Assembly: GCF_009498455.1 (NCBI RefSeq)
Contig: NZ_CP045644.1
Coordinates: 3,723,001-3,787,000 of the forward strand
Length of the DNA: 64,000 nucleotides
Direction of reading: 5' to 3'
Origin: Variovorax paradoxus
Lineage (GTDB): Bacteria > Pseudomonadota > Gammaproteobacteria > Burkholderiales > Burkholderiaceae_C
Shown: piece by piece, positions 5,959 through 64,000 of the stretch
How positions within the stretch are numbered: position 1 is the stretch's first letter
Layout: each line of letters opens with the position of its first letter
The notes under the pieces: generated by a model
What the model saw: the letters and a program-made list of their open reading frames with translations, nothing else
Told to the model about the DNA's origin: nothing
Databases searched by the model: none
Translations under genes and position numbers: made by a program

Positions 5959-8286
5959 ATGACGAATCAGACCACCCTGAAACCGCCGGTGCCGCGTGCT
6001 GCGCCGCATGACCACGGTCATGACCACGGGCACAGCCATGGGCACGACCATGCACACGATCACGCGCATGCCCACGCTCCCGCAGCGCCGGAAACGGCCT
6101 GCTGCGGCAGCCCCGTGTGCGGCAGCACTCCGGCGTCGACCGAGCCCGCCGACCTGCCGAAGGGCGCCGTGCTGTTTCGCATTCCCACCATGGACTGCGC
6201 GGTGGAAGAGTCCGAGATCCGCCGCGCCCTCGAGCCCGTCGCGGGCGTGAAGGGCCTGCGCTTCCGTCTGGGCGAACGCACGCTGGCCCTCACGACCGAA
6301 AACGGCGCACTGCCCGCCGCGCTTGAAGCCATCCGCCAGGCCGGCTTCAAGCCCGAGCCCGTGGCCGCAACGGGTGCGCAGAAGGCGGAGCCCGCGCGCT
6401 TCGCCGGCATGTCGACCGGCCTCGCACGCCTCGTCGCCGCACTGGTGCTGGCCATCGCGGCCGAGACCGTGTCGTTTCTCGCGCTCGACGGCGTGGGCTT
6501 CATGGCCGCCGAGATGGGGCTCGCGCTCGCGGCCATCGCGCTGGCCGGCCTCGACACCTACAAGAAGGGTTTTGCCGCGCTGGTGCGCGGGCGCCTCAAC
6601 ATCAACGCGCTGATGGCCGTCGCCGTCACTGGCGCTTTCATCATCGGCCAGTGGCCCGAGGCCGCGATGGTGATGGCGCTGTACGCCATCGCCGAGCTCA
6701 TCGAAGCCCGCGCCGTCGACCGCGCGCGCAACGCCATCCAGAGCCTGCTCGCGCTCGCGCCCGAACAGGCCGAGGTGCGGCAGCCCGACGGCAGCTGGCA
6801 GACCGTGCGCGCCGACGCGGTGGCGCTCGATGCGGTCGCGCGCATCCGCCCCGGCGAGCGCGTGCCGCTGGACGGCGTGGTGCTCGAAGGCACCAGCGCC
6901 ATCGACCAGGCGCCGGTCACGGGCGAGAGCATTCCGGTCGACAAGGCCGCGGGCGATGCGGTGTTTGCCGGCACCATCAACCAGACCGGCGCGCTCGTGT
7001 TCCGTGTGACGGCCGTGGCGGCTAACACCACGCTCGCACGCATCATTCACGCGGTGGAAGAGGCGCAGGGTTCGCGCGCGCCCACGCAGCGCTTCGTCGA
7101 CAAGTTCGCCGCCATCTACACGCCCACCGTCTTCGTGCTGGCGCTGGCCGTCGCCGTGCTCACGCCGTGGCTCATGGACTGGACCTGGGTCGAAGCGATT
7201 TACAAGGCGCTGGTGCTGCTGGTCATCGCCTGCCCGTGCGCGCTGGTCATCTCCACGCCCGTCACGGTCGTGAGCGCGCTGGCCTCGGCCGCGCGCCGCG
7301 GCATCCTCATCAAGGGCGGCACCTACCTCGAAGAGGCACGCAAGCTCAAGGCCGTGGCGCTCGACAAGACCGGCACCATCACGGAAGGCAAGCCCAAGCT
7401 GGTCGAGTCGGTGCTGATCGACAAGGCCGGTGGCGATGAAGGCGCGGTGTACGCACTGGCCGCCAACATTGCGGGCCGCTCCGACCACCCGGTGTCGAAG
7501 GCCATCGCCCAAGGCTTGGGTGGGTCGGTCGAAGAAGTCGGCGACTTCACCGCGCTGCCCGGACGCGGCGTGCAGGCCACGCACGCGGGCCAGAGCTACG
7601 TGCTGGGCAACCACCGGCTGATCGAGGAGCGCGGCCTGTGCTCGCCGGAACTCGAAGCCGAACTCAAGCGGCACGAAGAAGCCGGTCGCACCGTGACGCT
7701 GCTCGCATCGGAGAAGTCGGTGCTCGCGCTGTTCGCGGTGGCCGACACCATCAAGCCTTCGTCGCAGGCCGCCGTGGCCGAACTGCGCGCGCTGGGCGTG
7801 ACGCCCGTCATGCTCACCGGCGACAACAGCGCCACCGCGAAGACCATCGGCGCGCATGCTGGCATCGACGACGTGCGCGGCAACCTGCTGCCCGAAGAAA
7901 AGCTCGACGCCATCCAGGCGATGCAGCAACGCTACGGCGCCGTCGCGATGACCGGCGACGGCATCAACGACGCCCCCGCACTCGCCAAGGCCGACATCGG
8001 CTTCGCGATGGGCGGCGCCGGCACCGACACCGCGATGGAGGCGGCCGACGTGGTCATCATGAACGACGACCTGCGCCGCATTCCCGAGACCATCCGCCTG
8101 TCGCGCCGCTCGCATGTGGTGCTGTGGCAGAACATCACGCTCGCGCTCGGCATCAAGGGCGTGTTCTTCTTGCTCGCGGTGTTCGGCAGCGCGACCATGT
8201 GGATGGCGGTGTTTGCGGACATGGGAGCGAGCTTGTTGGTGGTGGCGAACGGGTTGCGGTTGATGCGGACTGGAAAGCAGGAATAG
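5959..8286 (+). CDS. cadA: Cadmium/zinc/lead-exporting P1B-type ATPase
   Basis: The product (775 residues) pumps Cd2+, Zn2+ or Pb2+ out of the cytoplasm at the cost of ATP. The N-terminus has a histidine-rich run (about residues 17-40), a CCGSPVCG cysteine cluster and a heavy-metal-associated domain with TMDCAVEE. Core motifs are complete: CPC in the sixth membrane segment (C425, C427), the phosphorylation motif DKTGT (469-473), and GDGINDAP (666-673). The GESIPVDK actuator loop is also seen. It is divergent from cadR and driven by the MerR-type promoter at 5922-5952. No ribosome site is visible before ATG 5959; a GTG at 5989 is an alternative start, but it too lacks a clear site. Confidence 0.94.
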   Translation: MTNQTTLKPPVPRAAPHDHGHDHGHSHGHDHAHDHAHAHAPAAPETACCGSPVCGSTPASTEPADLPKGAVLFRIPTMDCAVEESEIRRALEPVAGVKGLRFRLGERTLALTTENGALPAALEAIRQAGFKPEPVAATGAQKAEPARFAGMSTGLARLVAALVLAIAAETVSFLALDGVGFMAAEMGLALAAIALAGLDTYKKGFAALVRGRLNINALMAVAVTGAFIIGQWPEAAMVMALYAIAELIEARAVDRARNAIQSLLALAPEQAEVRQPDGSWQTVRADAVALDAVARIRPGERVPLDGVVLEGTSAIDQAPVTGESIPVDKAAGDAVFAGTINQTGALVFRVTAVAANTTLARIIHAVEEAQGSRAPTQRFVDKFAAIYTPTVFVLALAVAVLTPWLMDWTWVEAIYKALVLLVIACPCALVISTPVTVVSALASAARRGILIKGGTYLEEARKLKAVALDKTGTITEGKPKLVESVLIDKAGGDEGAVYALAANIAGRSDHPVSKAIAQGLGGSVEEVGDFTALPGRGVQATHAGQSYVLGNHRLIEERGLCSPELEAELKRHEEAGRTVTLLASEKSVLALFAVADTIKPSSQAAVAELRALGVTPVMLTGDNSATAKTIGAHAGIDDVRGNLLPEEKLDAIQAMQQRYGAVAMTGDGINDAPALAKADIGFAMGGAGTDTAMEAADVVIMNDDLRRIPETIRLSRRSHVVLWQNITLALGIKGVFFLLAVFGSATMWMAVFADMGASLLVVANGLRLMRTGKQE

Positions 8287-8319
8287 CGCAGCGGGCGCGA
8301 GCGCTTGCCGATCAACGTC

Positions 8320-8703
8320 TCAGTCGGCACGCCAGACGAGGTGCAGGTCGCCATCCACGAATCCCAGGGACACAGCGCGAGCAGCCTTCAGGCGCGCAGC
8401 GCCCGCAGACGGGGCGTCCAGGTAGCGAAGAATCATCTGTGAGATGGCCTGCAGGCCTGCCTCCCAGTCCGGTCCCACCACTTCGCTCGCGATCTCGAAA
8501 CGTGGCGATGAGGACATGAAGATGTCGTCGCAGGCCCAGTCGGAATCTTCGGGGTCGTAGGTCGGCGCCCCCACGAGTTCGAGGTCGTAAGTCGTCGAAC
8601 TGTCGTAGAGGTTGAAGTGAAAAGCGGCGATGCCTTCAGGCAGCGGCGCAGAGATGGCGGCATCGATCCAGGTGGCCAGATCGGCGAAGAGAGAGTCGTT
8701 CAT
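8320..8703 (-). CDS. Small acidic cytosolic protein of unknown function
   Basis: I do not recognise this 127-residue protein. It starts MNDSLFADLATWIDAAI, has no signal peptide or membrane segment, is acidic (for example TYDPEDSDWACDD) and reads as a compact mixed alpha/beta domain with a central FHFNLYDSSTTYDLELVG strand pair. Size and composition recall single-domain immunity-like or SMI1-like proteins, but no signature residue supports that. It lies alone between the convergent cadA gene and the CMD-family gene, which is on the same strand. GC content and codon use match the surroundings, and the translation is protein-like rather than the Arg/Pro-rich output of shadow frames, so I take it as real. 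Confidence 0.65.
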   Translation of the reverse strand: MNDSLFADLATWIDAAISAPLPEGIAAFHFNLYDSSTTYDLELVGAPTYDPEDSDWACDDIFMSSSPRFEIASEVVGPDWEAGLQAISQMILRYLDAPSAGAARLKAARAVSLGFVDGDLHLVWRAD

Positions 8704-8772
8704 GAGGCTGAAGTGGCTGGGTTTCCGATCATGCGCATTCGGATTTCTAGCACGGCCACAAGGCGTCTGAAC

Positions 8773-9363
8773 TCACCAGCGCGCCGCCCACGTCTCCAGC
8801 GGCACCCGCGCCGCATTGCATACATAGCTCACCGCGTGGTACCACCCCGCGAGCATCATCAGCTCGATGAGTTGCGCGTGGCTCCAGTGCGCGTTCAGGG
8901 CTTCCCACAGCGCATCGTCGATGGTGCCGGTGTCGTGCAACTGATCGACCATTGCAATCAGCAATGCGTCTTTCGGCGCCAGCTGTGCAAGGTCCCCATC
9001 CATCGACGCCGTCGCGCGCCGCTCGGCTTCACCCAGGCCGGCCGCGTCGGCGAAGCCGGTCCAGTGCACGCCCCATTCGTATTCGGCGCCGCAGCGCGCA
9101 CAGGCCCGCAGGATGACCAGTTCGCGGTCGCGCAGCTCGATGGCGGCGTGGCGGCCCAGCAGGTAGCGGCCAAGGTCGAGCGTGCGCTCGGCCAGCGCGG
9201 GGTTCACGGCCAGCACCTTGAAGAGCGACAGCACCTCGGGCGCCTGCGGCGGTGTCATGCGTTTGAGCAGCGTGCCGATGGCGTCGGGGTAGGGCGGCTC
9301 GAGCGGCGCGATCCTCGGGGCCGGGATGGGCAGGGCAGTGGAAGGCACGGTGATTCCTTTCAT
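8773..9363 (-). CDS. Carboxymuconolactone decarboxylase / AhpD-like protein
   Basis: The 196-residue product belongs to the CMD family, all-helical proteins that include gamma-carboxymuconolactone decarboxylases and AhpD-like peroxidases. The family core is visible: RDRELVILRACARCGAEYEW followed by GVHWTGFADAAGLG, with the YEW and His of the active-site region. The second half has the helix DALLIAMVDQLHDTGTI. The ATG at 9363 is chosen because it begins directly beside the shared operator region; a longer frame would run into it. It is divergent from an HxlR regulator at 9459, a pairing common for redox- or quinone-responsive control. The substrate is unknown. Confidence 0.8.
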   Translation of the reverse strand: MKGITVPSTALPIPAPRIAPLEPPYPDAIGTLLKRMTPPQAPEVLSLFKVLAVNPALAERTLDLGRYLLGRHAAIELRDRELVILRACARCGAEYEWGVHWTGFADAAGLGEAERRATASMDGDLAQLAPKDALLIAMVDQLHDTGTIDDALWEALNAHWSHAQLIELMMLAGWYHAVSYVCNAARVPLETWAARW

Positions 9364-9379
9364 AGAATGCGGTGGAATC

Positions 9380-9396
9380 GCTACGGAATGCGTAGC
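9380..9396. promoter_or_regulatory. HxlR operator, copy 1
   Basis: GCTACG-GAATG-CGTAGC is an inverted repeat with 6-bp perfect arms. It lies 17 bases before the CMD-family start codon. The same arm sequence recurs in copy 2 at 9414-9430, centred 34 bases away. Confidence 0.7.
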
Positions 9397-9413
9397 GACC
9401 AATGCAGTCTATG

Positions 9414-9430
9414 GCTACGAAATTCGTAGC
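9414..9430. promoter_or_regulatory. HxlR operator, copy 2
   Basis: GCTACGAAATTCGTAGC is a perfect 17-bp palindrome around a central A. It repeats the GCTACG/CGTAGC arms of copy 1 and lies 29 bases before the HxlR start. HxlR/YodB-type dimers bind this kind of site, so both divergent genes are probably controlled by the neighbouring regulator. Confidence 0.75.
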
Positions 9431-9458
9431 GCAAGGCCTGCGTCAACGAGGAAGACAC

Positions 9459-9782
9459 ATGGATGACACTGAGGCCTCCGCACCCGCCCCGCGCCGACCC
9501 ATCATGCGGCTGCTGGAACAACTGGGCCGCAAGGGCACGCTGCGCCTTTTGTGGGAGCTGCGCGACGGCCAGCCGCAGAGTTTTCGGGTGCTGCGCGAGC
9601 ACGCCGACCAGATGTCGCCCTCGGTGCTGAACGACCGGCTCAAGGAGCTGCGCACAGCCGGCATCGTCACGCTGTCCGATGCGGGCTACGTGCTCACCGA
9701 GGCGGGCGGCGAGCTCGTCAAGCGGTTGACGCCGCTCAACCAGTGGGCCGACCGGTGGATCGAGCCCGGAGCGTCGAACTAA
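9459..9782 (+). CDS. HxlR-family winged-helix regulator
   Basis: This 107-residue protein is a MarR-like winged-helix repressor or activator of the HxlR family. The family pattern is clear: MRLLEQLGRKGTLRLLWELRDG, then the recognition helix region MSPSVLNDRLKELRTAGIV and the wing VLTEAGGELVKRL. The cysteine that YodB/HypR members use as redox sensor near the N-terminus is absent, so a small ligand is more likely than thiol sensing. The ATG at 9459 is used because MDDTEAS is a normal family N-terminus and a GAGGAAG ribosome site precedes it; an in-frame ATG at 9402 would place the start between the operators. Confidence 0.85.
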   Translation: MDDTEASAPAPRRPIMRLLEQLGRKGTLRLLWELRDGQPQSFRVLREHADQMSPSVLNDRLKELRTAGIVTLSDAGYVLTEAGGELVKRLTPLNQWADRWIEPGASN

Positions 9783-9821
9783 CATCGAGCGAGTTCTTTC
9801 GCCCTCACGGTTTTCCCGCCC

Positions 9822-11072
9822 ATGTCCGTCACCACCCTCCTGCTGCAACTCGTCGTCATCCTCACCACCGCGCGCCTGTGCGGCTGGGTGCTGCGCCATG
9901 TGGGGCAGCCGAGCGTGGTGGGAGAAATGGCCGCGGGGCTGATGCTCGGGCCGGCGGTGATGGGCACGCTCTTTCCGTCGCTGCATGTGCAGCTGTTCGC
10001 CAAGGAGTCGCTGCAGGGGCTGTCGTCGCTGGCGACGGTGGGGCTGGTGCTGTTCATGTTCGTCGTCGGCCTGGAGCTGCGGGCCACGCGCAACATGCGC
10101 GCGCAGCTCAAGGCGGCGGGGGCGGTGGGCGTGCTGAGCGTGGCGGTGCCGGTGGTGCTGGGCATCGCGATCTCGCCGATGCTGCATCCCACCCTCGCAC
10201 CGGCCGGCGTGGGCTTCTGGCCCTTTGCGCTGTTCATGGCGGCGGCGCTGTCGATCACGGCGTTTCCGGTAATGGCGCGCATCCTGAAAGACCGCGGCAT
10301 GACGCGCACGCCCTTCGGCCAGCTCTCGCTGAGCGCGGCGGCGGTGGTCGATGTGTTCGCGTGGATCCTGCTGGCCTTCGTGGTCGCGACCATCGGTGCG
10401 GGCGAGGGCTATGCCGGGCTGCTCAAGACCTCGGTCGGCGTGGTGGTGCTGCTGGCTTTCCTGTTCTTCGGGCTGAAGCCGGCCTTTGCGTGGCTGCTGC
10501 GCGTGAAGGCCCCCGACGGCGAGCCGTCGACCACGCTGATGGCCTCGCTCATGATCGGCCTCCTGCTGTGCGCGCTGCTCACCGAATGGCTGCACCTGCA
10601 TGCGGTGTTCGGTGCCTTCCTGTTCGGCGCCTGCCTGCCGCGCGACGACCGTCTGCTGCGCTCGCTGAGCGAGCGCATCGAACCCATCTCCATCGTCGTG
10701 CTGATGCCGCTGTTCTTCGCGCTCGCGGGGCTGGGCACCACGGCCAACGCGTTCTCGGGCGCGAGCCTGGGCGCGATGCTGCTGATCGTGGGCGTGGCCA
10801 CCGTGGGCAAGATCGCGGGCGGCGCGGCGGGCGCGCGCATCGCGGGCTACAGCTGGCGCGACAGCCTGGCCACGGGCTCGCTCATGAACGCGCGCGGGCT
10901 CATGGAGCTTATCGTCATGAAGATCGGCCTCGACGTCGGCCTGATTGGCCCCGAGCTGTTCACCATGCTGCTGGTGATGGCGCTCGCCACCACCGCGATG
11001 ACCGGGCCGCTGATGACGCTGTGCATCGGCCGCAAGGCCCGGGTGGCCGGGACGGCGCACGCCGAGTCCTGA
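9822..11072 (+). CDS. Monovalent cation:proton antiporter, CPA2 family
   Basis: The product (416 residues) is an inner-membrane Na+/H+ or K+/H+ exchanger with about twelve hydrophobic segments. The CPA2 pattern is seen in LCGWVLRHVGQPSVVGEMAAGLMLGPAVMG near the N-terminus (the first helix and loop), in VGLELRATR, and in SITAFPVMARIL. The C-terminal part contains the NARGLMELIVMKIGLDVGLI motif. At this length it lacks the cytosolic RCK/TrkA-N regulatory domain of KefB/KefC, so it is closer to the short NapA/GerN-like antiporters. It follows the HxlR gene after 39 bases and may be transcribed with it, but a functional link is not evident. Confidence 0.88.
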   Translation: MSVTTLLLQLVVILTTARLCGWVLRHVGQPSVVGEMAAGLMLGPAVMGTLFPSLHVQLFAKESLQGLSSLATVGLVLFMFVVGLELRATRNMRAQLKAAGAVGVLSVAVPVVLGIAISPMLHPTLAPAGVGFWPFALFMAAALSITAFPVMARILKDRGMTRTPFGQLSLSAAAVVDVFAWILLAFVVATIGAGEGYAGLLKTSVGVVVLLAFLFFGLKPAFAWLLRVKAPDGEPSTTLMASLMIGLLLCALLTEWLHLHAVFGAFLFGACLPRDDRLLRSLSERIEPISIVVLMPLFFALAGLGTTANAFSGASLGAMLLIVGVATVGKIAGGAAGARIAGYSWRDSLATGSLMNARGLMELIVMKIGLDVGLIGPELFTMLLVMALATTAMTGPLMTLCIGRKARVAGTAHAES

Positions 11073-16480: not shown

Positions 16481-19688
<3,208 letters not shown>

Positions 19689-55238: not shown

Positions 55239-55264
55239 GTAACCAAGGCATCACGGGCCCCGAA
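55239..55264 (+). promoter_or_regulatory. ECF (SigF-like) promoter of the bufferin operon
   Basis: GTAACC (55239-55244), exactly 16 bases, then CGAA (55261-55264). This is the published consensus of SigF-dependent promoters of Caulobacter, which control bufferin genes there. The expected transcript start is near 55271, leaving a leader of about 50 bases before ATG 55323. The sigma factor gene itself is not in the window. Confidence 0.75.
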
Positions 55265-55322
55265 CTACCAAATGACCTCGCGTTCCAGCGTGGCAACCAC
55301 TTCAACCAACCGGAGTTCACTC

Positions 55323-55610
55323 ATGATCCATCGTCCTCTCGTCACCGCCGCCCTCGCGTTGGGTGCCCTTGCCGCCGGCTCCGCCATGGCCCAGGACAAA
55401 CCGATGGCCGACAAGGCGGTCAAGATGGAAAAATGCTACGGCGTTTCGATGGCCGGCAAGAACGATTGCGCCGCCGGCCCCGGCACCACCTGCGCCGGCA
55501 CGTCGAAGGTCGACTACCAGGGCAACGCCTGGAAGAACGTCCCGGCCGGCACCTGCGCCGCCATCAAGACGCCCAAGGGCATGGGCTCGCTGACACCCAT
55601 CAAGTCCTGA
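55323..55610 (+). CDS. bufA: Bufferin precursor peptide (DUF2282), copper-binding RiPP
   Basis: This 95-residue precursor has a signal peptide ([23 protein letters not shown]) and a mature part with four cysteines at positions 38, 49, 57 and 78, in [21 protein letters not shown] and VPAGTC. In Caulobacter the matching cysteines are converted by the MNIO enzyme to thiooxazole groups and the product binds copper in the periplasm. EKCYG-x-x-x-AGKNDCA is the family signature. CGGAG precedes the ATG by seven bases. It heads bufABCD under the SigF-like promoter. The role as a copper buffer is inferred from the family and from the adjacent cus genes. Confidence 0.88.
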
Positions 55611-55628
55611 TCGCCGCCGACCGCCGCC

Positions 55629-56471
55629 ATGCAAGGTCCGCTCACCGCCGGGCTCGGCCTCAAGCCCGAACACTACGCCGATGCACTGTCGGCCCGGACC
55701 GAAGGCTTGTGGTTCGAGGTGCATCCCGAGAACTACATGGTGGACGGCGGTCCGCGGCTCGGGTGGCTGGAAGCCATTCGGGCTCACCATCCGGTGTCGC
55801 TGCACGGGGTCTCGCTGTCGCTCGCGGGCGATGCGCCGCCGGACCCCGCACACCTGCGGCGACTGGCCGCGCTCGCGCAACGCATCCAGCCCGCGCTGAT
55901 CTCCGAACACCTCGCCTGGTCGAGGTGGGATGGCCGGTATTTCCCCGACCTGCTGCCCTTCGTGCGCAGCACCGAGGCGCTGCACCGCATCGCCGACAAC
56001 ATCGCGCGCACGCAGGATGCACTGCGCACCACCATCGCCATCGAGAACCCGTCCCACTACCTGCGCATCGAGGGCCACACATGGGACGAGGTCGATTTCC
56101 TCTCGGCGCTGGCGCGGCGCACCGGTTGCACGCTGCTGCTGGACATCAACAACGTGCATGTCTCGGCGTCCAACCTGGCGTACCCGGCGCAAGACTGGAT
56201 CGACCGCGTTTCGCAGGCGATGGTGAGCGAAATCCATCTCGCGGGCCATTCGAGTGATCCGGCGATGGGCGAGACCTTGCTGATCGACTCGCACGATGCC
56301 CCCATAGCACCGGTGGTCTGGCAGCTTTATCGCCGCTTCATCGAGCGCGCGGGGCCTCGCCCCACGCTGATCGAGCGCGACGGCAACCTGCCGGCCTTCA
56401 GCGAACTGATGGACGAGCGCCATCGGGCCGCCGCCGAACTGCAACGCGCGGCCTGGGAGGCCGTGGCATGA
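55629..56471 (+). CDS. bufB: MNIO (DUF692) bufferin-modifying oxidase
   Basis: The 280-residue product belongs to the multinuclear non-heme iron-dependent oxidases (MbnB/DUF692 family), which act on cysteines of RiPP precursors. It has a TIM-barrel plan starting GLGLKPEHY, with metal-ligand residues in WFEVHPENYM, VSLHGVSLSL, LISEHLAWS, IAIENPSHYL, LLLDINNVHVSA, EIHLAGH and LIDSHD. The length is typical. It is 18 bases from bufA and overlaps bufC as ATGA (56468-56471). A role in thiooxazole formation on BufA is inferred from the family. Confidence 0.9.
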   Translation: MQGPLTAGLGLKPEHYADALSARTEGLWFEVHPENYMVDGGPRLGWLEAIRAHHPVSLHGVSLSLAGDAPPDPAHLRRLAALAQRIQPALISEHLAWSRWDGRYFPDLLPFVRSTEALHRIADNIARTQDALRTTIAIENPSHYLRIEGHTWDEVDFLSALARRTGCTLLLDINNVHVSASNLAYPAQDWIDRVSQAMVSEIHLAGHSSDPAMGETLLIDSHDAPIAPVVWQLYRRFIERAGPRPTLIERDGNLPAFSELMDERHRAAAELQRAAWEAVA

Positions 56472-57280
56472 ACACGTCGCACGCACAGTTCCAGGCGGCC
56501 TTCGCCGATGCGCTTTTCGCGCCGCGAGAGCGGGTGGACCCGAGCCTGCGGCATCTGGCTGAGCAGCCGGCCTTCGCGGTCTATCGCAACACCGTGATGA
56601 AAGGCTGCGTCGATACGCTCGAAGCAAATTTTCCGGCGGTGGTGCGGCTGGTCGGCAGCCCGTGGTTCCGGGCCGCCGCCGCCGTGTACGTGGCCGCCGA
56701 GGCGCCGCGCGACGGCCGCATGCTGACCTACGGCAGCCGGTTTGCCGAGTTCCTGCGCAACTTCGGCCCAGCGGCGGAGCTCCCCTACCTGCCCGGCGTG
56801 GCGCAGCTCGACGCCCTGTGGCGCGAATCCCATGCTGCGCAGGATGCGCCGGTGCTCGACGCGGCCGGGCTGGCGCCTGTCGCACCCGAGGCCATTGCCC
56901 GCCTGAAGGCGAGTCCCCATCCGGCGGCACGGTGGGCGTGGTTCGATGCGCAGCCTGTCTTCAGCATCTGGTCGCGCAACCGCCAGGGTGCGGACCACAC
57001 CTTCGACGCAGATGCCACCGAGTCCCTCGAACTGCTCTGGAAGGGCGAGGGCGCGGTGCTGACGCGGCCCGCAGACGTGGTGCACTGGTGCGCCATCCCG
57101 CAAGCCGGTTGCACCTTCCTCGATGCCTGTGCGGTCGGACTGCCGCTGGCCGAGGCGGCCGAACAGGCGCTCGCCATCGATCCCGCCGCTGACCTTGCCG
57201 CGCTCTTCGGCACCTTGCTGCGCGCCGGCGCATTCACCGGCGGCACACTCCCGCTCGATCCCCCTGGAGGCGCCTCATGA
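56468..57280 (+). CDS. bufC: DUF2063 partner protein of the MNIO enzyme
   Basis: This 270-residue cytosolic protein has the DUF2063 N-terminal domain: [56 protein letters not shown], which is the part that recruits the precursor to the DUF692 enzyme in related systems. The C-terminal half ([21 protein letters not shown]) is less conserved. The ATG overlaps the bufB stop and its end overlaps the DoxX gene as ATGA (57277-57280), so the genes are coupled one to the next. No enzyme motif is visible, in agreement with an accessory role. Confidence 0.88.
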
Positions 57281-57762
57281 ACTCGCGTGCCGACACACCC
57301 AAGCCTGCCGCGGTCGCCCGCGGGAAAGATCTTCGCGCGCGCTGGAACGCGCTGGCCGACCGGCTCACGTGCATCGTTCCGCACGACTTGCTCGCCGTGG
57401 TCACGCGGATCGGCATTGCGGCGATTTTTCTCCTGTCGGGACGCACCAAGGTCGAGGGCTTCCTGACGCTGACCGACAGCGCCTACGAACTCTTTCGCAC
57501 CGAATACAAGCTGCCGCTCGTGCCCCCCGAGATCGCGGCACACCTCGCAGCCTATGCGGAGCACCTGTTTCCGGTGCTGCTGGTGCTAGGCCTGTTCACG
57601 CGGCTCTCGGCGCTCGCACTGCTGGGCATGACGCTGGTGATCCAGGTCTTCGTGTATCCCGATGCCTGGCCGACGCACCTGTCATGGGCGGCGCTGCTGC
57701 TGTACCTGGTCGGTCGCGGGCCGGGACGTCTGTCGCTGGACCGGCTGCTGGGCCTGCGCTGA
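57277..57762 (+). CDS. bufD: DoxX-family membrane protein of the bufferin operon
   Basis: The 161-residue product has four hydrophobic segments of the DoxX type, with the first-helix pattern [19 protein letters not shown] and later [33 protein letters not shown]. DoxX proteins are common last genes of DUF2282-DUF692-DUF2063 operons; their role is not known, though electron transfer or quinone binding is suspected. The ATG overlaps the bufC stop. 60 bases separate it from the next gene. Confidence 0.85.
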
Positions 57763-57822
57763 TCCGGCCGGCGTCGCGTGACGAAGCATCGCCCCCCGGC
57801 GCAGGACTAAACTCCACCGGCC

Positions 57823-58209
57823 ATGGTCCGCTGCCGTCATCTCCATCGCTGCCTGGTTGCGTTTTTCGCAGCCCTGTCGCTGCTGTTTTCGCAGCTGGCT
57901 CTGGCGGGCTATGTCTGTCCCGGTGCGCCGGATGCGGGTGCCATGCCCGAAATGATGGCTTCCGGCGAGCCCTGCGACAGCATGGACACGGTGCAGCCCG
58001 TGCTGTGCTTCCAGCACGCCGCCGACCTGTCGCTGTCCTTCGAACCGGTGAAGCTGACCACGCCCTCGCTGCCCGCCATCGTGCAGCTCGTGGTGATGCC
58101 CCTGGTGCTGGTGCCGGAAGGCCACGTGCTTCCGCCGCAGGCCGTGCCGGAGCGGCAGCATCCACCGCCCGATCCTGTTTTTCTTGCCACGCGCAGACTG
58201 CGCGTCTGA
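57823..58209 (+). CDS. Small exported Cys/Met-containing protein before cusCBA
   Basis: I do not recognise this 128-residue protein by family. It has a signal peptide (MVRCRHLHRCLVAFFAALSLLFSQLALA) and a mature part that opens with GYVCPGAPDAGAMPEMMASGEPCDSMD, holding several cysteines and methionines suited to soft-metal binding, then a more hydrophobic stretch (LPAIVQLVVMPLVLVPEGH) and an Arg/Pro-rich tail. Similar small proteins precede copper efflux operons. By position, between bufD and cusC, and by its composition, a periplasmic copper-handling role is likely but not proven. Confidence 0.7.
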   Translation: MVRCRHLHRCLVAFFAALSLLFSQLALAGYVCPGAPDAGAMPEMMASGEPCDSMDTVQPVLCFQHAADLSLSFEPVKLTTPSLPAIVQLVVMPLVLVPEGHVLPPQAVPERQHPPPDPVFLATRRLRV

Positions 58210-58284
58210 CACCTCCCTCGACTGACTGGTGCTGGTGCGGCGCGTCCGCTTGCCAGCGATACCTCGTTCGTTTGCGGAGTTCTC

Positions 58285-59517
58285 ATGTCCCTTCCTTTGT
58301 CGCGCGCGGCCGTCTGGGCCGTCGCGTTGCTGCCGTCCCTTGTGGCGGCGGCCCCCCTGTCCCTTGACGCGGCGCTTGAGCTTGCCGCCCGGCGTTCCGA
58401 AGCCACCCGCGCCGCCCGTGCCGGCGTCGCCAGCGCCACGGCGGCGGCATCCGCGGCCCCGGAGCTTCCCGACCCCACACTGCGCATCGGTGTCGACAAC
58501 CTGCCCGCGACGGGCGCGGATCGCTTCCACACCACGCGTGACTCGATGACGATGAAGCGCATCGGCATCAGCCAGGAATGGCTGTCCGCCGACAAGCGCG
58601 CCGCGCGGCAGGCCGCCGCCGATGCCTCGGTCGGCCGGGAAACGGTGCAGGTGCAGGCCGCAGCCGCCGACACCCGCCAGCAGACCGCGCTCGCGTACGT
58701 GGACGCGTTCTACCTCGGGGAGAGCCTGAAGCTCGCGCGGCTCATGGAGCTCCATGCGCATGAAGAGTGGGAGGCGTCGCGTGCGCGCCTGTCTTCGGCC
58801 GCGGGGAGCAGCCAGGACGTGCTGGCATTGGCTGGCGCCAGAGGCGTCTCGGAAGACGAGACGGCAGACTTCCTGCAGCAGCAGGAGGCCGCAAGCGTCG
58901 CTTTCCAGCGCTGGGTCGGGATACCGCCTGACGACCTGCTGCCTCCGGCTGCCATCGCCCTGCCATCCGAAGAAGCCTATGTGGCCGCACACCCCACGGT
59001 CGCGGCCATGCAGCGCGATGTCGATGTGGCCAGGCAGACGGCCGCCGTCACCGCGTCCAACCGCAAGCCCAACTGGACCTGGGAGCTCGCCTACGGCCAG
59101 CGCAGCGGCTATGCCGACATGGTGTCGGTCGGCCTGAGCATTCCGCTGCCCGTTGCCCCCGCGCAAAGGCAGGACCGGGACACCGCGGCCAAGCTGGCGC
59201 TGGTCGAGAAGGCCGAGGCCGACCTGGCCGAAGCCACCCGGGCCGCGACCGCCGAATACCGGGCGCTCCGCAGCGATGCGCAACGCCTGCTACAGCGCAT
59301 CGACCGCTACCGCGCCGGCGTCGTCGTTCCGGCCGGCCACAGAACGGCTGCCGCGACCGCGGCCTACCGCTCCAACCAGGGCAGCCTCGTCACGCTGTTC
59401 GAGGCACGGCATGCCGAAGTCGAAGCCCAGCGCAAGCTGTTGACGCTGCAGCGCGACCTGGCCAGGACCCACGTTCAACTGGCCTTCCGGCCGCTTGCTG
59501 CCGAGGTGGCCCCATGA
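58285..59517 (+). CDS. cusC: Outer membrane factor of the Cus efflux system
   Basis: The 410-residue product is a TolC-like outer-membrane channel. A signal peptide (to about LVAAAP) is followed by LSLDAALELAARRSEATRAARAGVASATAA, the first helical arm of the outer-membrane-efflux fold, then a membrane-strand region with DPTLRIGVDNLPATG and the second repeat from about residue 230, including YADMVSVGLSIPLPVAPAQRQ. The length is shorter than CzcC but normal for CusC-like proteins. The stop overlaps the cusB start as ATGA (59514-59517). Confidence 0.87.
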   Translation: MSLPLSRAAVWAVALLPSLVAAAPLSLDAALELAARRSEATRAARAGVASATAAASAAPELPDPTLRIGVDNLPATGADRFHTTRDSMTMKRIGISQEWLSADKRAARQAAADASVGRETVQVQAAAADTRQQTALAYVDAFYLGESLKLARLMELHAHEEWEASRARLSSAAGSSQDVLALAGARGVSEDETADFLQQQEAASVAFQRWVGIPPDDLLPPAAIALPSEEAYVAAHPTVAAMQRDVDVARQTAAVTASNRKPNWTWELAYGQRSGYADMVSVGLSIPLPVAPAQRQDRDTAAKLALVEKAEADLAEATRAATAEYRALRSDAQRLLQRIDRYRAGVVVPAGHRTAAATAAYRSNQGSLVTLFEARHAEVEAQRKLLTLQRDLARTHVQLAFRPLAAEVAP

Positions 59518-61013
59518 ACCGGACCCGAACGATCGGCGCAGCGCTGCTGGCCGCCTTGGTGCTCGCAGCGAGCGCTTTCTACCTGGGCCGCAGGACGGCA
59601 CAACCCACGGACGCGTCGATGGCCGTGCCGACCCACGCACCCACGGCCGACGGTCGCAAGGTTCTCTACTGGCACGACCCCATGGTTCCGGGCCCGCGCT
59701 TCGACAAGCCCGGCAAGTCGCCCTTCATGGACATGCAACTTGTGCCCATGTACGCAGACAGCGCCACAGGCACGGCCAACCAGGGCAGCGTGCAGGTGAG
59801 CCCCACGGTCCAGCAGAACCTCGGCATCCGGCTTGCGAGCGTGCGGCGCACACAAAGCGCCGCGTCCTTCGATGCGGTCGGCACCGTGCAGTTCGACGAG
59901 CGGCGCAACGTCGCCGTGCAGACGCGCGTCGCCGGCTACGTCGAGCGCCTGTCGGTCCGCGCGCCCATGGAGCGCGTGCGCAAGGGACAGGCGCTGGCGA
60001 CGGTCTTCGCGCCGGAGTGGCTCGGGCCGCAGAACGAGCTGCTGGCCCTCAAGCGATCGGGCGTCGCCCCCGATCTCATTGCAGCTGCGCGTGACCGGAT
60101 GCGGGCCCTGTCGATCCCCGCCGAGCTCATTCGCCGCAGCGAGGAGACCGGCACGGCGCAGGCGCGCTACGTGCTCACTGCGCCGTCCGACGGCGTGGTG
60201 GCCGAGCTGGGCGTGCGCGAAGGCGTCGCCGTCACGCCCGGCATGACGCTGTTCCGCATCGCGGGCCTGGAGAAGGTCTGGGCGGTGGCCGAGATTCCGG
60301 AAGCGCGGGCCGTGCGTCTCGCGCGCGGCCAGAAGGTCAAGGCGATCCTTCAGGCCGATGCGGCCCAGTCTTTCGAGGGGGCGCTCGACGAGATCCTTCC
60401 CGAGATCAACACGTCGACCCGCACCCTGAAGGCCCGTTTCGAGGTCGACAACAGGAACGGCAAGCTCACACCCGGCATGCTGCTGCGCCTGCAGGTGACG
60501 GGCCCCGCCAGCACCCGGTTGGTCGTGCCGTCCGAAGCCGTCATCCGCACCGGCAAGCGCGCGGTCGTCATCGTGCGCAAGGCAGACGGCGCGTTCGAGC
60601 CGCGCGACGTGTCGCCGGGCGCGGACCTGGGCGACGACACCGAAGTCGTCTCGGGCCTGAATGAAGGCGACCAGGTCGTCGCCAGCGGCCAGTTCCTCAT
60701 CGACTCGGAAGCCCGGCTGCGTTCGGTGCTGGGCACCATGGCACCTTCGCCGGCAACGACCCCTCCGGCCGCCGTGCTGCACAAGGCCGAAGGGAGGGTC
60801 GAAAGCGTGGAGCCAGACGGCCTCACGATCTCGCACGGCCCTGTCGCCACGCTCAAGTGGCCATCCATGACGATGGGCTTCGCCAAGACGTCGCCAGACG
60901 CCTTCGCCCAGATCAAGCCCGGTGACCAGATCCGCTTCGAGTTCAAGGAAGGCGGCCCCACGGGCTACGAACTGGTCTCCGTGCAGCGCATGCCACAGGG
61001 TGCGAAGCAATGA
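59514..61013 (+). CDS. cusB: Cus periplasmic adaptor with C-terminal CusF-like domain
   Basis: This 499-residue adaptor has an N-terminal anchor, then a heavy-metal-binding segment ([20 protein letters not shown], followed by MDMQLVPMY, about residues 50-80) typical of CusB-like proteins, the adaptor core with two lipoyl halves ([25 protein letters not shown] at 140-165; [12 protein letters not shown]), a helical hairpin and a beta-barrel. Residues from about 425 to the end form a CusF domain: [14 protein letters not shown] carries the Cu/Ag-binding Trp and Met residues. Fusion of chaperone and adaptor in one chain is known in other betaproteobacteria. The stop overlaps the cusA start. Confidence 0.9.
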
Positions 61014-64000
61014 TCGCCGCCCTCATCCGCTGGTCGGTCGGCAACCGCTTCCTGGTGCTGATCGCGACCCTGTTCCTGGTGGCTGCCGGCTGGTGGTCGG
61101 CCGCCCGCACGCCGCTCGATGCGCTGCCCGACCTGTCGGACACGCAGGTCATCATCCGCACGCCTTTCCCTGGCAAGGCACCCCAGGTGGTCGAAGACCT
61201 CGTCACCTACCCGCTGACCACCACGATGCTCAGCGTGCCCGGCGCCAAGACCGTGCGCGGCTACTCCTTCTTCGGCGACTCGTTCGTCTACGTGCTGTTC
61301 GACGACAAGACCGATCCGTATTGGGCGCGCTCGCGCGTCGTCGAGTACCTGAACCAGGTGCAGAGCAGGTTGCCGGCCGGTGCCAATGCATCACTGGGCC
61401 CCGATGCCACGGGCGTGGGCTGGGTCTACGAGTACGCACTGGTCGACCGCACGGGCACGCGCGACATCGGGCAGCTGCGCGCGCTGAACGACTGGTTCCT
61501 CAAGTTCGAACTCAAGACGGTGCCCGACGTGGCCGAGGTCGCCAGCATCGGCGGCATGGTGCGCCAGTACCAGGTGGTGCTCGACCCCGACCGCATGCGC
61601 GCACTCGGCATCACGCAGTCGATGGTCGTGGCGGCGCTGCAGAAGGCCAACCAGGCCTCGGGCGGCTCGGTCGTGGAACTCGCCGAGGCCGAATACATGG
61701 TGCGTTCGCGCGGCTACCTGCGTTCGCTGGACGACTTCCGCACCATCCCGCTGGCCCTGACGGGCGCGACGCCGGTGCTGCTGCGTGACGTGGCGACGGT
61801 GCAGATCGGCCCCGAGATGCGCCGCGGCATCGCCGAGCTCGACGGCGAAGGCGAGGTGGCCGGCGGCGTGATCGTCATGCGCTCGGGCAAGAACGCGCGC
61901 TCGACCATCGAGGCCGTCAAGGCCAAGCTGGAGACGCTCAGGCCCGGCCTGCCGCCGGGCGTCGAGATCGTGCCCACCTACGACCGCGCGCTGCTGATCG
62001 ACCGCGCCGTGGACAACCTGCGCGGCAAGCTGATCGAGGAGTTCATCGTCGTCGCGCTCGTCTGCGCGGTCTTCCTGTTCCACCTGCGCTCCGCGCTCGT
62101 GGCGGTGGTGGCGTTGCCGATCGGCGTGCTGGCGGCGTTCGTCGTCATGCACTGGCAGGGTGTCAACGCCAACATCATGTCGCTGGGCGGCATCGCGATC
62201 GCCATCGGCGCGATGGTGGACGGCGCCATCGTGATGGTCGAGAACGTGCACAAGCACATCGAGGTGTTCGAGACGGCGCAGGGCCGGCAGCCGACAGTGG
62301 GGGAACGGTGGCAGCTTGTTGCCGATGCGTCCGTGGAGGTCGGGCCTGCGCTGTTCTTTTCGCTGCTGGTGATCACGCTGTCCTTCGTGCCCGTGTTCTC
62401 GCTCGAGGCGCAGGAGGGGCGGCTGTTCTCGCCGCTGGCTTTCACCAAAACCTACGCCATGGCCGCTGCGGCGGGCCTGTCGGTCACGTTGATCCCGGTG
62501 CTCATGGGCTACCTGGTGCGCGGACGCATTCCGCACGAGGCGTCCAACCCCGTGAACCGCTTCCTGATGGCGGTGTACCGGCCCGCGCTGGAGCTGGTGC
62601 TGCGCTTTCCCAAGGGAACGCTCGCCGTGGCTGCCGTGGTGCTCGCGCTCACGGCCGTTCCGCTGATGCGGCTGGGCGGTGAGTTCATGCCGCCGCTGGA
62701 CGAAGGCGACCTGCTCTACATGCCCTCGGCACTGCCGGGGCTGTCGGTGTCGAAGGCCGCCGAGCTGTTGCAGCAGACCGACCGCCTGATCAAGACCGTG
62801 CCCGAGGTCGCGCGCGTGTTCGGCAAGGCCGGCCGCGCGGACACCGCGACCGACCCGGCGCCGCTCGAGATGTTCGAGACCACCATCCAGTTCAAACCGA
62901 AGGATCAATGGCGCGCCGACATGACGCCCGACAGGCTGGTCGAGGAACTGGACCGCGCCGTCAAGGTGCCGGGCCTGACCAACGTGTGGGTGCCGCCCAT
63001 TCGCAACCGCATCGACATGCTGGCCACGGGCATCAAGAGCCCGGTCGGCATCAAGGTGGCGGGGGCGGACCTGGGCACCATCGATTCGCTCACCACGCAG
63101 ATCGAGGTGGCGGTCAAGAACGTTCCCGGCGTGTCGTCGGCGCTGGCGGAGCGGCTCACCGGCGGGCGCTACATCGACGTCGATGTCGACCGGCTCGCAG
63201 CGGCGCGCTACGGGCTCTCGGTGGCGGATGTGCAGGCCGTGGTGTCCACGGCCATCGGCGGCGAGAACGTGGGTGAGGTCATCCTGGGCCGCGAGCGCTA
63301 CCCCATCAACGTGCGCTACCCACGCGAGATCCGCGATTCGCTGGAGCGGCTGCGGCAGTTGCCCTTCGTGACCGACAAGGGCGCGCAGTTGCTGCTCGGC
63401 GACGTCGCGCGCATCGCGATCGAAGACGGCCCGCCGATGCTGCGCAGCGAGAACGCGCGGCTCTCGGGCTGGGTCTACGTGGATGTGCGCGGGCGCGACC
63501 TGCGCTCCGCCGTCAACGACATGCAGGCGGCGGTCGAGAAGGTGGTGAAGATGCCCGCCGGCTATGCGGTGTCGTGGTCCGGCCAGTTCGAATACCTGGA
63601 GCGTGCGACCGAGCGGCTGAAGCTGGTGGTCCCGGCCACGCTGGCGGTCATCTTCGTGCTGCTGTACCTGCTGTTCCGCTCATTCGCCGATGCGGCCCTG
63701 GTGATGGCGGCGGTGCCGTTCTCGCTCGTCGGCGGTTTCTGGCTCATCTGGGCGCTGGGCCACTCGATCTCGGTCGCGACGGCGGTGGGCTTCATCGCGC
63801 TGGCGGGCGTGGCGGCCGAGTTCGGCGTGGTGATGCTGATCTACCTGAAGAATGCGCTGGCACGGCGCCTGGACGCCGGGGAGCCGATGAACGACGACAC
63901 CTTGTTGGCAGCGATCCGCGAAGGCGCGGTGCTGCGCGTGCGGCCCAAGGCCATGACCGTGGCCGTTGTGATGGCGGGGCTGCTGCCCATCCTGTGGGGC
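61010..64000 (+). CDS. cusA: Copper/silver RND efflux pump CusA (3' end outside the window)
   Basis: The first 997 codons of a heavy-metal RND pump are present; the frame runs off the end. It starts [20 protein letters not shown], with ATGA overlap to cusB (61010-61013). The class motif reads [16 protein letters not shown] (D404 and the following Glu), which matches the HME4, monovalent Cu/Ag class and differs from the DFGIIIDG of CzcA in this window. Methionine residues in the periplasmic loops ([19 protein letters not shown]) fit the Met-relay of CusA. About 40-60 residues of the C-terminus are probably missing. Confidence 0.93.

Follow-up and report, generated by a model that had tools for sequence, protein, structure and literature searches.

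Buf1 gene set in the window

The 64,000-nucleotide stretch of Variovorax paradoxus DNA analysed here (the window) carries on its forward strand four closely packed genes, bufA to bufD, with a candidate promoter in front of them and a set of efflux genes behind. The first gene, bufA (55323..55610), encodes a 95-residue DUF2282 (Buf1) precursor with cysteines at positions 38, 49, 57 and 78. After a gap of 18 nt it is followed by bufB (55629..56471), which specifies a putative MNIO bufferin maturase of 280 residues, by bufC (56468..57280), specifying a DUF2063 partner protein of 270 residues, and by bufD (57277..57762), specifying a DoxX-family membrane protein of 161 residues; the bufB/bufC and bufC/bufD junctions each overlap by 4 nt. 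Precursor, MNIO enzyme, DUF2063 partner and DoxX protein together form the core described for Buf1 clusters (PMC12452194), and the DoxX gene is counted as part of that core though it is missing from some clusters. The original prediction of a bufferin-type bufA-bufB-bufC-bufD set on one strand is borne out at 55323–57762, where the cluster is of the Buf1 kind and holds the full core gene set, with all four families above their curated cut-offs. Its start at 55239, by contrast, had to be revised: this is the first base of a promoter motif and no gene start, as bufA begins at 55323.

The family assignments are clear at the level of profile matches. In Pfam, BufA matches PF10048 (DUF2282) with 88 bits against a cut-off of 22.4, BufB the MbnB_TglH_ChrH family of MNIO enzymes with 316 bits (cut-off 25), BufC PF09836 (DUF2063) with 72 bits (cut-off 27.2), and BufD PF07681 (DoxX) with 66.7 bits (cut-off 23.6). 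Among the NCBIfam models, BufB exceeds MNIO_BufB (NF050167; 350.8 bits, cut-off 310) and falls under the respective cut-offs of the HvfB, MbnB, ApyH and ChrH models, while BufA scores 20.4 bits with the BufA2 model (cut-off 60) and BufD 47.2 with the HvfX model (cut-off 80), both under threshold. Identification of the locus as a Buf1 bufferin cluster is thus supported by sequence. Across the whole genome (7.29 Mb, one contig), searches at E ≤ 0.001 returned a single match each for MNIO and DUF2282, both at bufABCD.

Comparison with relatives shows which residues have been kept. When the window BufA is aligned with those of 79 relatives, the last three cysteines are shared by all 80 sequences and the first by 79; an alignment of 81 BufB sequences yields 26 near-invariant His, Asp, Glu or Asn positions, which are retained in the window BufB, and one relative's BufB match contains an in-frame stop. 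The N-terminus of BufA, judged by eye, has a basic start, a hydrophobic stretch and an AMA end, and so looks like a signal peptide. BufB shares conserved blocks with 3bww, a DUF692 structure. Among solved structures no relative was found for BufC, nor for BufA, which gave two weak LIM-domain matches (E 0.15 and 0.39).

Promoter motif upstream of bufA and the distant sigmaF genes

The sigmaF-type (ECF16) promoter motif GTAACC-N16-CGAA occupies 55239..55264 on the forward strand, 58 nt 5′ of the bufA start codon, and is an exact copy of the published binding sequence of Caulobacter sigmaF, a factor that controls CC3254-3257, an operon of DUF2282, DUF692, DUF2063 and DoxX genes (PMC3511200). Similar-looking promoters have been printed for RpoE7 of S. 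meliloti and its DUF692 operon (PMC6180224). To gauge conservation, the best site within 300 nt upstream of the bufA match was scored in 78 of 80 relatives, leaving out one locus without a bufA match (L039) and one at a contig end (L084). The motif is matched without a mismatch in 59 loci; a further 13 loci differ from it at one base, 2 at two, 3 at three and a single locus at four. It is therefore found with at most one mismatch in 72 of the 78, and both relatives with two mismatches fit exactly if given a 17-base spacer. The corresponding controls are close to empty, with 0 of 78 for the reversed pattern, 0 of 78 for an equal stretch within the coding region, and 1 of 3900 for shuffles. The motif is not enriched genome-wide (9 sites vs. 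11 for the reversed control), and in the window taken by itself a single match with no more than one mismatch is at chance level (mean 1.14). Given this lack of genome-wide over-representation, the argument for the motif draws on where it stands and on how well it is conserved.

The sigma factor gene itself commonly lies alongside. A sigF-nrsF pair is present within the fetched stretch in 68 of the 80 relatives, is divergent from bufA in all 68, and in 63 of these loci sigF, too, carries its own strict motif. Pair-bearing loci never show above two mismatches, and the four loci without a site (three or more mismatches; L043, L050, L072, L091) are all among the ten scored loci that lack the pair. 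This layout is common elsewhere and not a requirement. No such pair adjoins the window operon, where a fatty-acid hydroxylase gene stands upstream of bufA in its place, and six Variovorax relatives without an adjacent pair keep the exact motif (L019, L020, L023, L024, L025, L026). In the window genome NrsF matches occur twice at 2.82 Mb and once at 5.25 Mb, with the buf operon at 3.78 Mb. The two sigF genes of this genome, 86% identical, adjoin nrsF, and the motif stands at the head of each; at the 5.25-Mb copy the automatically called ORF begins within the motif, and its real start probably lies more internally.

The simplest reading is that bufA is a sigmaF target parted from its sigma gene and presumably still served in trans. 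At the level of the genus, NrsF is encoded less than 5 kb from DUF2282 in 29 of 46 genomes, and it occurs in all 46 DUF2282-bearing and in 48 of 55 DUF2282-free genomes (Fisher p 0.015). As almost every genome of the genus has NrsF, whether or not DUF2282 is present, sigmaF must serve further genes. The stretch at 2.80–2.82 Mb of the window genome (L096 and L097) holds GTAACC-N16-CGAA four times without mismatch, once upstream of a sigF gene, together with a second NrsF gene that has no obvious sigma partner, and these hint at a wider sigmaF regulon.

The motif also bears on a question left open in Cupriavidus metallidurans. As reported in PMC10304878, no start site was seen upstream of gigP under non-challenging conditions, RpoQ control of gig was assumed without evidence, and deletion of rpoQ raised gig expression, for which the authors propose compensation among sigma factors. 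In strain CH34 the exact motif is present at both gigP and the divergent rpoQ, a promoter pair on which we found no statement in open-licence papers. We consider it probable that in Beta- and Gammaproteobacteria ECF16 sigma factors (sigmaF, RpoQ) directly drive the Buf1 operons from GTAACC-N16-CGAA, that the ancestral arrangement was a divergon with sigF-nrsF, and that some operons of the Variovorax group left the sigma gene, kept a promoter controlled in trans, and settled beside cus more than once. Such a direct role of RpoQ or sigmaF must account for the raised gig expression after rpoQ deletion. If true, it would supply the missing gig promoter, the conserved sequence being a concrete answer to the C. 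metallidurans question; if confirmed, it would make bufferin operons and regulons traceable by promoter even where the sigma gene is distant.

The neighbouring cus unit

Beyond bufD the forward strand continues, after 60 nt, with orf128 (57823..58209), a gene for 128 residues that heads the cus unit, lies outside the bufferin core and has no Pfam match at E values up to 1. After a further 75 nt come genes for a cusC-like outer membrane efflux protein (58285..59517), a cusB-like adaptor with a C-terminal CusF domain fused to it (59514..61013), and a cusA-like RND pump that runs past the window end (61010..64000). The order is that of CusCBA, from an outer membrane factor through a CusB-type adaptor to an RND pump, and the unit is a putative copper efflux system. 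The cluster had been placed directly before cusCBA, and cus does follow on the same strand, with orf128 intervening after the 60-nt gap. The window contains a further RND pump gene (16487–19483), 37% identical to cusA.

The cus unit is duplicated in the genome. From position 57842, near the start of orf128, it is 92% identical (6309 aligned bases) to a unit at 4.16 Mb, and the 17-kb stretch around that copy gave no buf gene match. In all 29 loci compared, a set that includes one exact repeat (L026 = L106), orf128 heads the cus genes, and in 27 of the 29, the window included, a TANACT element is found shortly 5′ of its start (window 57800–57823). The element looks like a −10-like sequence and may represent a near-leaderless promoter; its presence in 27 of 29 loci suggests that cus probably has a promoter of its own.

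These features bear on whether bufABCD, orf128 and cusCBA form one copper operon, co-transcribed from the sigmaF-type promoter. The shared strand and gaps of only 60 and 75 nt would suit a single transcript, as would the finding that the sole terminator-like match in 57600–58400 falls inside orf128, at chance level. Set against this, the unit is a duplicate of a copy without buf genes, the TANACT element before orf128 is kept, and the gig transcript of C. metallidurans ended with gigT (PMC10304878). Co-transcription is thereby weakened, and we give it a modest chance at best; we favor a copper efflux unit that is duplicated, distinct from buf and equipped with a start-site motif of its own.

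Adjacency of buf and cus was considered as a conserved bufferin–efflux module and rejected. In twenty genomes of the genus DUF2282 occurs together with a cusA that is 83% or more identical, and the two lie within 15 kb in 8 of these, which amounts to 8 of the 46 DUF2282-bearing genomes; seven of the eight have them on opposite strands, the tandem layout occurs only in the window, and NrsF is beside bufA in none. Only three of the 80 nearest relatives (L021, L024, L026) have, within the stretch, a cusA that is 75% or more identical; in one of these, the Polaromonas locus L021, cus lies some 4 kb 3′ of bufD. In the family sample at least two genomes (G000 and G139; rows read by eye) have both within 15 kb. 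The recurrence of adjacency in differing layouts hints at joint use, yet there is no fixed module. In G139 (L125, about 7079–10572), bufA directly follows cusA on the same strand, and the bufferin is perhaps placed under cus control there; the strict motif is absent from this 14.5-kb stretch, which counts against a simple rule.

Kinship with known bufferins and proposed function

The cluster had been put forward as the most novel system of the window, on account of its betaproteobacterial setting and its link between a copper peptide and copper efflux. Both grounds give way. The gigPABT operon of C. metallidurans, likewise a betaproteobacterium, is now termed a bufferin (PMC12452194, PMC13192273) and is the same operon; its interplay with CusCBA was already probed genetically in 2023 through gig/cus multiple mutants (PMC10304878), and the buf–cus arrangement is, as set out above, confined to a minority of the genus. 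Within the genus, 46 of the 101 genomes encode DUF2282, and the family sample has it in 146 of its 250; the nearest relatives are mostly Variovorax. The claim of novelty was thus overstated: bufferin systems had been described before and are frequent among related bacteria. The operon is one more well-formed copy of a long-overlooked copper-tolerance system, and the regulatory lead offered by its promoter is the useful addition.

The likeness to known systems is close. The gig proteins of CH34 are 61, 65, 48 and 66% identical to window BufA, BufB, BufC and BufD, in the same gene order and with the same exact GTAACC-N16-CGAA upstream. The two loci differ in their neighbors: in CH34 gig is flanked by a divergent rpoQ-rsqA, and the 8.8-kb gig stretch gives no match to cus at E 1e-4, whereas in the window genome sigF-nrsF lies at a distance and cus follows buf. 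The Caulobacter Buf1 operon CC3254-CC3257 has the same four families and promoter motif (PMC3511200), but there sigF-nrsF (CC3253-CC3252) adjoins the operon, and Caulobacter has a second cluster, CC2907-2905. More distantly, Buf2, oxazolin/fontiphorin (EGKCG), methanobactin and chryseobasin have the MNIO enzyme in common with the window, and the first two also the DUF2063 partner; the window cluster is set apart from these systems by a DUF2282 precursor with four cysteines and without the EGKCG repeat.

Very probably, then, the window holds the complete operon of a Buf1 bufferin, like gigPABT and CC3254-CC3257 in kind, its maturation, copper buffering, sigmaF-type promoter served in trans and separation from cus included. 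In the Buf1 precursor the central two of the four cysteines are modified and the outer two are bridged by a disulfide (PMC12452194). For related thiooxazole products, PMC12668002 reports that each modified cysteine loses about 4 Da and that absorption peaks near 305 nm. By analogy we infer that BufA is likewise modified, exported, able to bind copper and protective. Transcription of bufA would start from the sigmaF-type ECF promoter GTAACC-N16-CGAA, at an estimated position near 55270, presumably under the sigmaF-NrsF pairs encoded elsewhere in the genome. In the cytoplasm, BufB with its partner BufC would oxidize the central Cys49 and Cys57 of BufA to thiooxazoles; the peptide would leave via Sec, Cys38 and Cys78 would join in a disulfide, and the mature BufA would buffer excess periplasmic copper, with BufD as an accessory membrane protein.

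It is conceivable that the cluster serves mainly against another metal or thiol stress, such as gold, chromate or cadmium. The C. metallidurans gig genes were named as gold-induced, Caulobacter sigmaF answers chromate and cadmium (PMC3511200), and roles beyond copper are discussed in PMC12452194. On the side of copper stand the data given for Caulobacter Buf1 in the same source, the induction of gig-lacZ by copper (PMC10304878), and the cus genes that neighbor buf in this genome, and we regard a chiefly non-copper role as unlikely. In C. metallidurans, gig is copper-induced and adds to copper resistance in multiple mutants, and deleting gig alone left copper resistance unaffected (PMC10304878). 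Since Caulobacter sigmaF answers chromate and cadmium, and the S. meliloti operon was uninduced by any stress tried as reported in PMC6180224, copper may not be the sole signal (PMC3511200, PMC6180224). That the buf genes are a decayed or silent copy without function, as the missing sigF-nrsF neighbor (present in 68 of 80 relatives) might suggest, is highly improbable, given that all four frames are open, the near-invariant positions are kept and the promoter motif is exact.
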